From positions 1 through 37,224 of the forward strand of contig JAPLKL010000037.1 in assembly GCA_026388095.1 (NCBI GenBank): a DNA stretch of 37,224 nt, given 5' to 3'. The DNA comes from Elusimicrobiota bacterium. Lineage in GTDB: Bacteria > Elusimicrobiota > Elusimicrobia > UBA1565 > UBA9628. Every line of letters starts with the position of its first letter. Positions within the stretch are counted from its first letter, which is position 1. The notes under the pieces are model-generated. The model was not told where the DNA came from. It was given only the letters and a program-made list of their open reading frames with translations, and searched no databases. The position numbers and the translations under genes are program-made. Of this stretch, positions 15,406-18,077 are shown in pieces.

Positions 15406-17037
15406 ATGCCCCAGGGAATGCCTACCATCTATAAGATCCTCGCCGCCGTCGTGATCGCCGCCTTGGCCGGCGTCGCGGCGCTGACCATCGCGCTCAAGAT
15501 CTGGCTGCCCCCGCAGAAAGTCCAGCAGCTCATCGTCGAGCAGGCCGGCAAGTACCTCCACCGCGAGGTCAGGCTCAAGTCCGTGGAACTCGGGGTGATC
15601 AAAGGCTTGGTCGTGGAGGGCCTGGAGGTCTCGGAGAAGCCGGATTTCAAGGCCGGGGTCTTCGCGGGCGTGGAGACCTTCCGCTTCCGCATCCGGCTGC
15701 TGCCGCTGCTGCGCAAGACCGTGGTCATCGATGAGATCACCGTGGCGGGCCCGAGTCTGGCCGTGGTCCAGCTCAAGCCCGGCGTCTTCAACTTCTCGGA
15801 CCTCCTGGCGGCTCCGGCCAAGGCTCCCGAAGCCAAGCCCACGATCGCGTCGGCCGGGCTATCCTTGCCCTTCGCCCTGCAGGCGTCGGTCGTCGCGCTC
15901 AAGGACGGGCGCATCACCTATCAGGACAAGGTCACAGGCGCGCAGTGGCGCGTCGGCAAGCTCCAGGGCGTCATCAAGGACCTGAGCCTGGCCAAGCCTT
16001 TCGGCGTCGAGGCGGGGCTGCAGGCCGAGCAGGTCGCGCCGGGCAGCCTCAAGGCCAAGCTGGACTTCGACGGCCAGGTGGACCTCTCCTGGTTGTCCTC
16101 GGGCAAGCTCTCCCTCGACATCAAGAAGCTCTCCGCGGACCTCTCCGGCCTGGCCCTGTCTTTGGCCGGCCCCGTGCACCTGGACGGAGAGACCCTCAAA
16201 GCCGAGGACCTCAAGGGCAGGCTCGGCAGCGGCAAGCTCTCGATCAAAGCCGTCATCCGGGACTTCAACAAAGCGCCGGACGCCCAGCTGGAAGCCAGCC
16301 TGAGCGAACTCGATGCGGCCAAGCTCCTCGAGGTCAAAGACCTCATGGCCGGGCCGCAGCCGGCGGCGGGCAAGGGCGCGCCGGCCCCGGTCGCCAAGAC
16401 GGTTGCCAAGCCGGCCAAGCCCGCCGCGGCCGCCCCCGTCTCCGCGGGTCCGCCCATGAAGACCAGCGGCAAGGTCGCGGTGGACAAGATCCTCTACCGC
16501 ACCTTCAAGGCCGAGAAGCTGCTCATGACCTGGGACCTCAAGGGCATCACCCCGGACCTGCGCGGGCTTTCCGGCGCCGCCAAGCTCAGCGTGGGCGGCG
16601 GCACCTTCCAATCCGAGGAGGGGGCCGGCGGGCGCTCCAATCTCATGAAGGCCCTGCTCATCCCCCTGACCGTGCTCAAGCAGATCGGACGCCTGGGCTC
16701 GGCCCTGCGCCTGCTGCCCTCCTTCGACCAGCTCGCTTTCTCCGAGATCAAGGGCGACTACCTCTTCGAACGCGGGCTCATGACCATCAAGGAATTCCAC
16801 ATGACCAGCGCGGCGGCCAAGGTCACGGCGGGCGGCACCATCGACCTGCCCGCGCAGAAGCTCAACCTCCAGGTCACGATAGCCCTGGCCAACGTGGCGC
16901 CCATCGGCGTGGACGTGGGGGGGACCTTCGACGAGCCCAAGCCCAAGCTGCGCCTGACCAAAGCCCTGGCCGAGCCGGTCCAGAAGCTCGCCCAGCCCGC
17001 CCTGAACCTCTTGAAGGGCCTGTTCAGGAAGAGATAG
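15406..17037 (+). CDS. AsmA-like envelope protein
   Basis: A 543-residue protein with one N-terminal membrane anchor (about 7-30, IYKILAAVVIAALAGVAALTIALKIWL) and a long exported beta-rich domain. It shows AsmA-family hallmarks: an N-terminal YLHREVRLKSVELGVIKGLVVEGLEVSE region, then FRIRLLPLLRKTVVIDEITVAGPSL, a low-complexity Ala/Pro/Lys linker around 320-350, and a C-terminal AsmA_2-like section (GDYLFERGLMTIKEFHM, AKVTAGGTIDLPAQKLNLQVTI) at about 445-500. Proteins of this repeating-beta-groove class act in outer-membrane homeostasis and inter-membrane lipid transport. That fits a didermic cell; the specific role here is inferred. Confidence 0.85.
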   Translation: MPQGMPTIYKILAAVVIAALAGVAALTIALKIWLPPQKVQQLIVEQAGKYLHREVRLKSVELGVIKGLVVEGLEVSEKPDFKAGVFAGVETFRFRIRLLPLLRKTVVIDEITVAGPSLAVVQLKPGVFNFSDLLAAPAKAPEAKPTIASAGLSLPFALQASVVALKDGRITYQDKVTGAQWRVGKLQGVIKDLSLAKPFGVEAGLQAEQVAPGSLKAKLDFDGQVDLSWLSSGKLSLDIKKLSADLSGLALSLAGPVHLDGETLKAEDLKGRLGSGKLSIKAVIRDFNKAPDAQLEASLSELDAAKLLEVKDLMAGPQPAAGKGAPAPVAKTVAKPAKPAAAAPVSAGPPMKTSGKVAVDKILYRTFKAEKLLMTWDLKGITPDLRGLSGAAKLSVGGGTFQSEEGAGGRSNLMKALLIPLTVLKQIGRLGSALRLLPSFDQLAFSEIKGDYLFERGLMTIKEFHMTSAAAKVTAGGTIDLPAQKLNLQVTIALANVAPIGVDVGGTFDEPKPKLRLTKALAEPVQKLAQPALNLLKGLFRKR

Positions 17038-17054
17038 GCGGGCGGCGGATCCTC

Positions 17055-17774
17055 ATGAACATCTCATACCGCTTCCGGCTCCAGGGCGGGGCGGAGATCC
17101 GCTTCGCGCTGAGGCTCGACCCCGAGACCTTGGGACTCATCCCCGCCGAAGACGGGCCGCCGCCGGAGTGGACCCGCCTGGGCAACCGGCAATGTCCGCA
17201 CTGCCCGCTCTCGGAGGACCGGCACCCCTATTGCCCCATCGCGCGCAACCTCGCGGGGGTCATCCGGGAGTTCGCGCCGCGCATCTCCTTCGAGGAGGCG
17301 GACATCTCGATCGCGACCGACGCCCGCCAATTCCGGCGCCGCGCGCCGCTGGATAACGGGATCAGCGGCCTCATCGGCATCGTGATGGTCACCAGCGGCT
17401 GTCCCCACCTGGACAAACTCCGGCCCATGGTCTACTCCCACCTACCCTTCGCCTCGACCAGCGAGACCTCCTATCGGGCCATCTCCATGTACCTGCTGGC
17501 CCAGTATCTGCGCCGCCAGAGGGGGCTGGAGCCCGACTGGAGCCTGGCCGGCTTGGTGCGCATCTACGAAGCGGTCAGCCTGGTGAACAGGCATTTCGTG
17601 GAGAGGCTCAGGACCATCAAGATGCTGGACGCTTCGCTCAACGCCATCGTCAAGCTCGACTGCTTCGCCACCCTGACCGCCGGCATCATCACCGCGCAGA
17701 GCCTGGCGGGCGTGGAGCGCCTTTTCCAGGGCTATCTCGGCGGCCCTGAGACAGACCCCGTCCGCCGGCCGTAG
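17055..17774 (+). CDS. Cysteine-containing protein of unknown function
   Basis: A 239-residue soluble protein starting at ATG 17055, 17 nt after the AsmA-like gene and probably cotranscribed with it. The N-terminal 40 residues look like a beta-hairpin domain (YRFRLQGGAEIRFALRLDPETL), followed by a conserved-looking Cys cluster (CPHCPLSEDRHPYCPIA, about 57-73) and GCPHLDKLRPMVYSHLPFA near 115-133. The C-terminal half is helical. It resembles the small family named DUF6901, from memory and uncertain. Metal or cofactor binding by the cysteines is possible. The TAG stop (17772-17774) is also the first three bases of the inverted-repeat element that follows, so the natural C-terminus may have been replaced. 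Confidence 0.75.
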   Translation: MNISYRFRLQGGAEIRFALRLDPETLGLIPAEDGPPPEWTRLGNRQCPHCPLSEDRHPYCPIARNLAGVIREFAPRISFEEADISIATDARQFRRRAPLDNGISGLIGIVMVTSGCPHLDKLRPMVYSHLPFASTSETSYRAISMYLLAQYLRRQRGLEPDWSLAGLVRIYEAVSLVNRHFVERLRTIKMLDASLNAIVKLDCFATLTAGIITAQSLAGVERLFQGYLGGPETDPVRRP

Positions 17775-18009
17775 CAGGCTGCTGATAAACCCTCCAGCGG
17801 AAAGGACTGTGTCCGTCCGGACACAGGCCTTTCGGTAGCGGGCAACAGTCCGTCCCCGAACTGGCGCGCCGAAGGCTCGCCAGTCGCGCCGAAGGCGCCA
17901 TCCTTCGTGCAACCTATCGGATGGGTTCTGCCGCCCCGCTTCGCGGGTCGGTGCGCCCGGCAGACGGCCGCCGGGCGCTCGCAGAACGGACTTCATCAGC
18001 AGCCTGCTA
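17772..18009. repeat. 238-bp hairpin-rich element with 15-bp terminal inverted repeats (MITE/REP-like)
   Basis: The ends are perfect inverted repeats: TAGCAGGCTGCTGAT (17772-17786) and its complement at 17995-18009. Inside is a chain of hairpins: 17800-17833 (GAAAGG-a-CTGTGTCC, loop GTCC, complement with one mismatch); 17860-17884 (7-bp stem ACTGGCG/CGCCAGT); 17886-17898 (GCGCC-GAA-GGCGC); and a branched unit closed by GTTCTGC/GCAGAAC (17925-17931/17981-17987) enclosing CCCGC-TTC-GCGGG (17935-17947) and a 9-bp stem GCGCCCGGC/GCCGGGCGC (17953-17978). There is no reading frame and no transposase. It could be a non-autonomous mobile element, a REP-type cluster, or a structured RNA/terminator for the upstream genes. 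Confidence 0.8.
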
Positions 18010-18050
18010 GCCCCCCGGCCCCGCGAGTTGGCTTCCGCTGGATTTATTTG

Positions 18051-18074
18051 TTACCATATAATTAGGTAGCTAAG
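18051..18074 (+). promoter_or_regulatory. Promoter and likely MarR operator of the efflux operon
   Basis: A -10 TATAAT at 18057-18062 lies inside an AT-rich patch with two inverted repeats: TACC-N9-GGTA spanning the -10, and TTAG-GTAG-CTAA just downstream. A weak -35 (TTCCGC) sits 18 nt upstream. Palindromes over the -10 of a marR-headed operon are the usual site of autorepression; that is inference from family habit. No Shine-Dalgarno precedes the ATG at 18078. Confidence 0.5.
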
Positions 18075-18077
18075 TAA

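Follow-up and report, generated by a model that had tools for sequence, protein, structure and literature searches.

A CTAG-targeted MITE with a modular chain of hairpins, probably mobilised by an IS5/IS1182-type transposase, in an Elusimicrobiota genome

The repeat found just upstream of marR in the window (the whole 37,224 nt stretch of Elusimicrobiota DNA that was analysed) is, with a probability that we put at about 0.88, a MITE with IS5/IS1182-type terminal inverted repeats of 15-18 bp, inserted at a YTAR target with a 4-bp duplication by a transposase of this type. It is shorter than approximately 600 bp, present in multiple copies, free of any transposase gene, and bounded by terminal inverted repeats and a target duplication. 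The perfect 15-bp terminal repeats described in the initial annotation of 17772-18009 are indeed present: 17 of 18 positions are complementary between 17772-17789 and 17992-18009, the outermost 15 perfectly so (full pair TAGCAGGCTGCTGATAAA / TTCATCAGCAGCCTGCTA). As the 4-bp duplication occupies 17771-17774 and 18007-18010, the element itself extends from 17775 to 18006. Its boundaries are therefore as follows.

17775..18006, plus strand: the MITE proper, 232 bp, as defined by the copies and the analysis of the target duplication
17771..17774, strand not applicable: left target-site duplication, GTAG here against CTAG in most copies
18007..18010, strand not applicable: right target-site duplication, CTAG
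17775..17789, plus strand: left terminal inverted repeat, CAGGCTGCTGATAAA
17992..18006, minus strand: right terminal inverted repeat, reading CAGGCTGCTGATGAA on that strand

Inspection of the open reading frames within these 232 bp revealed nothing resembling a protein, in keeping with the earlier statement that there is no coding capacity, but that statement does not extend to the left flank, where the DUF6901 ORF upstream (15945-17774) uses the TAG as its stop codon. Carriage on a plasmid was considered and rejected, as no matching plasmid record was found.

Approximately 30 copies of the element, full or broken and 71-100% identical, are present in the same genome, which disposes of the concern that it might be a single copy; across 57 relatives, matches are confined to members of the genus and are only partial. 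CTAG flanks both ends of 11 of the 17 full-length copies in the genome, and the remaining six differ by one base at one end; in the window copy this single base separates GTAG on the left from CTAG on the right. When all fetched elements are considered, the paired ends are CTAG/CTAG (n = 28), CTAA/CTAA (n = 3) and TTAG/TTAG (n = 1), the latter two combinations coming from other genomes. Because CTAA and TTAG are not palindromic, the duplicated unit must be 4 bp rather than TA. The target is YTAR, mainly CTAG, with a 4-bp duplication as in IS5-type elements. A TA target of the IS630 type was considered and rejected, both because that transposase family is absent and because the CTAA and TTAG duplications represent a 4-bp unit. 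At one locus in another member of the same family (L205, 1-165; G016:C35), two elements abut and share one CTAG, as if one had inserted into the target duplication of the other.

The element is missing from the orthologous site in a sister species of the same genus (G003): the alignment with the window follows the upstream gene as far as its stop, then resumes at 18047 and continues through marR, and the two parts are separated by 29 bases where the window has 274. In G003 the orthologue of the upstream gene stops at the same codon position, with TGA rather than TAG. This comparison also bears on the proposal that the hairpins act as a structured RNA that regulates the marR-efflux operon or forms its leader, a proposal for which the position of the element 68 bp upstream of marR and its strong fold might be taken as evidence. 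The region before marR that is conserved between species (from 18047), comprising a TATAAT-like box and a palindrome at the start of marR, is common to G003, a second genome of the genus (G004) and the window, and lies downstream of the element; hence the element is not part of the conserved leader of the efflux operon. Furthermore, G003 has the upstream gene, the conserved region and marR in common with the window while lacking the element, the approximately 30 copies adjoin unrelated genes, and a search of Rfam with the element identified no family at threshold (best score 15.5 bits, where 74 were needed). This placement of a structured RNA in the 5' region of the operon, put forward in the initial annotation, is thus extremely unlikely. 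Within 18044-18077, TTGTTACCATATAAT and the palindrome TTAGGTAGCTAAGTAA precede marR, are kept in G003 and G004 and have similar counterparts in G005; they probably represent a promoter and MarR operator.

The ends link the element to known transposases. An exact scan for both ends spaced 185-215 bases apart returned matches in Rhabdonatronobacter, Hankyongella, Cupriavidus, Roseococcus, a Myxococcales bin and one further bin, and the genomes found in this way carry between 3 and 57 ends each at no more than one mismatch. Hairpin-rich MITEs in Alphaproteobacteria and Myxococcales have the ends found here around interiors that are unrelated in sequence, most of which fold far below shuffled sequences (the exceptions being L074, L077 and L130). 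In another bacterium (L095), the same ends surround 1.36 kb encoding a 389-aa transposase that passes the NCBI IS5 model NF033581 (253.8 bits against a cut-off of 140), its IS1182 score being below the cut-off. Within the genus, G004 has the same end before the broken start of a transposase gene (L191), an IS1182-like remnant matching IS1182 at E 3e-9 and the L095 protein at E 8e-8. A number of contigs in G016 terminate roughly 125 bp inwards from such ends, beside a similar start codon, which is the pattern that a multicopy IS would be expected to give.

Neither the IS5-model search of the same genome and the genus nor a search of six genomes with the L095 protein, the latter run without a positive control, recovered a transposase with matching ends. 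The assembly searched for a partner is 97.6% complete in 79 contigs and has none with matching ends; it does contain an intact member of the IS1182 family that lies between copies of CTAG but whose repeat, GAGCCTGTCCGA, is different. The partner transposase may have been lost or may be hidden in assembly gaps. The non-autonomous element moved by a transposase elsewhere that was originally envisaged is supported by the multiple copies, the target duplication, the empty site and the occurrence of the ends on both a real IS and a remnant; the step in trans, by an IS5/IS1182-type transposase, is what we infer from these.

The ends had also been likened to those of insertion or REP-type repeats. 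The first likeness holds, the ends being IS5/IS1182-like, while the second is not supported. An origin as a REP/REPIN-type element, mobilised by a REP-associated Y1 (RAYT) transposase, would accord with the GTAG at the left flank, the small palindromic hairpins, the two Y1_Tnp genes in the genome (L215 and L216) and the lone single hairpin modules in the genus. This GTAG, however, is a one-base variant of the CTAG duplication, the non-palindromic CTAA and TTAG are duplicated as 4 bp for the element as a whole, and neither Y1 gene is flanked by this element; no hairpin pair with a GTAG tag was observed in association with a RAYT gene. Y1 elements are not known to make 4-bp YTAR duplications. 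Such an origin is consequently very improbable. Near the first Y1 gene (L215) there is a lone GGCCGTAAGGAAATCCGTCCGGCC hairpin, which also occurs in longer variants of the MITE.

Inside the MITE, hairpins follow one another in a chain. For the entire element, the predicted fold has an energy of -140 kcal/mol, compared with -99.9 ± 4.6 for 200 dinucleotide shuffles (z = -8.7), and a clear signal persists when the terminal repeats are excluded (z = -5.0), whereas the flanking stretches give z scores of 1.1 and 0.1. At least five internal stems had been reported, and five are present, none with an assigned strand.

17801..17832: hairpin 1, AAAGGACTGTGTCC / GGACACAGGCCTTT; its apex is the insertion point of a second repeat of ~0.4 kb in other copies
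17860..17884: hairpin 2, ACTGGCGCGCC / GGCTCGCCAGT; in other copies, longer stems of unrelated sequence take its place
17886..17898: hairpin 3, GCGCC / GGCGC around GAA; the best conserved stem
17935..17947: hairpin 6, CCCGC / GCGGG; its loop takes two extra hairpins in some copies
17953..17978: hairpin 7, GCGCCCGGC / GCCGGGCGC; also present as a lone module elsewhere in the genus, while other copies have unrelated stems in this position

The branched unit is the weakest part of the original description: its 7-bp closing stem, GTTCTGC/GCAGAAC at 17925-17931 / 17981-17987, does exist, but it competes over 2 bp with the outer stem AGTCCGT/ACGGACT and, according to the alignment, is not retained in divergent copies.

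One way in which the copies vary considerably is in the sequences of these stems. Hairpin 2 has three versions, each with full or nearly full pairing: ACTGGCGAGCCGAAGGCTCGCCAGT, a stem of 35 bases based on CCCAGACAGG/CCTGTCTGGG and, in G004, another of 35 bases that is unrelated to these. Hairpins 1, 6 and 7 also exhibit stem swaps in which pairing is kept, with up to 8 doubly changed pairs relative to the window copy; to count these changes, each stem was read from its base, as sequence alignment misplaces swapped stems. In L015, L017, L019, L020 and L026, the loop of hairpin 6 contains insertions of whole hairpins, and stems on CCCAGACA/TGTCTGGG occupy positions 2, 6 and 7 in different copies. 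Single hairpin modules without the ends of the element are present in sister genomes; a loose pattern for hairpin 7 variants retrieved mainly chance hairpins, and was used solely to read exact variants of the module.

This shows that the structure persists through turnover of the stem sequences, and the stems, whose lack of conservation had been named as an argument against the element, have remained paired despite swaps in hairpins 1, 2, 6 and 7. Such covariation is compatible with selection but can also arise through palindrome correction, and is no proof of function. Most likely, the hairpins are maintained either by structural selection or by repair in which one arm serves as template for its partner; putative roles are the damping of read-through transcription or assistance in the pairing of the ends, or there may be none.

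Other repeats are associated with these modules. A second repeat, of ~0.4 kb, is nested in the apex of hairpin 1 in L047 (C34) and L048 (C63); it has the ends CAGAGCTGTCCGGGGAAA / CACTCCTGTCCGGGGAAAATCC and an apparent 8-bp duplication, GTCCGGAC, and breaks many contigs, being found at the ends of C10, C16, C18, C22, C23, C30, C32 and C46. A second DUF772 transposase gene of the same genome is likewise preceded by a single module, and two copies of another DUF772 transposase gene (L059 in C15 and L160 in C58) each have a hairpin 7 module a short way ahead of their start, as though this IS targeted or carried such hairpins.

The insertions are also distributed unevenly with respect to open frames. 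In 19 of 24 copies, a frame from outside runs into the TAG of the target duplication, and in three it does so on both sides, such that the frames are convergent; the rule required a frame open over 120 codons or more and was based on frames rather than annotation. The same rule was satisfied by 77 of 171 control CTAG sites (45%) in 398 kb of stretches from the same genome, an excess at stop codons with a Fisher p of 0.0015 (0.009 when both ends are known). CTAG is about six-fold rarer in these 398 kb than base composition predicts. The excess is largely explained by the rarity of CTAG inside genes, together with the regeneration of the stop by the duplication; loss of harmful copies would explain the remainder.

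Alternatively, the MITE could have been domesticated, the copies at gene ends being kept as transcription barriers or protectors of 3' ends, and the hairpin chain being selected for a role in the host. The excess at stop codons, with its three insertions between convergent frames, and the maintenance of pairing through sequence replacement could both be read in this way. A pattern search, however, detected no intrinsic terminator in the element, which has no U-tract; the distribution of CTAG accounts in part for the siting; the element is absent from the one orthologous site compared; and the unrelated MITEs with the same ends are hairpin-rich too. Domestication consequently seems unlikely. 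More doubtful still is the fuller proposal that the chain is a selected modular structure, its stems exchanged from a genus-wide pool of hairpins with the architecture kept, which CTAG targeting installs at gene ends as a 3' boundary tolerated or used by the host.

The preferred reading, a MITE moved in trans, suggests a simple mechanism. An IS5/IS1182-type transposase would cut the element and insert it at YTAR, mostly CTAG, duplicating 4 bp; with CTAG being rare and largely found at TAG stops, and the stop being regenerated by the duplication, insertions at gene ends would be harmless, and copies there would be retained for this reason. The interior hairpins would meanwhile turn over in sequence while their pairing persists. 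The element clearly illustrates how the choice of target by itself can account for harmless multiplication of a mobile element: outside stop codons the target is rare, and the duplication rebuilds the stop. The paired stem swaps provide a natural data set for asking whether the hairpins of MITEs are under selection or simply result from palindrome repair.

The element is thus a MITE of a known kind, in a variant with an unusually modular hairpin interior. A search of open-access papers for the end sequence found no paper on mobile elements, subscription journals and ISfinder being outside its scope. The closest published case found is MITEPsy1 of Pseudomonas syringae, associated with ISPsy2 of the IS5 family; insertions in that system have been trapped experimentally (PMC3189936). 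Like the element described here, MITEPsy1 is small and non-coding, targets CTAG or YTAA with a 4-nt duplication, and has 18-nt terminal repeats, with ends related to an IS5-family element (PMC3189936). By contrast, it is 100 bp long with an unrelated terminal repeat sequence, and the part of the report consulted describes neither a chain of hairpins nor a stop-codon bias (PMC3189936). REP/REPIN sequences and GTAG-tagged palindromes share the small palindromic modules, some of them alone, but differ in ends, target and class of transposase (PMC3733652). Nearer in sequence are the IS5/IS1182-type ISs with CAGGCTGCTGA ends, such as L095, whose repeats are identical over at least 11 bp and whose target is the same CTAG, although they have a transposase and the element does not. 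Finally, the CTAG MITEs L073-L080, together with those of 116 bp in G016 and 157 bp in G031, have the same ends and 4-bp YTAR duplication around interiors that are unrelated to that of the element, most of which nonetheless fold well below shuffles.
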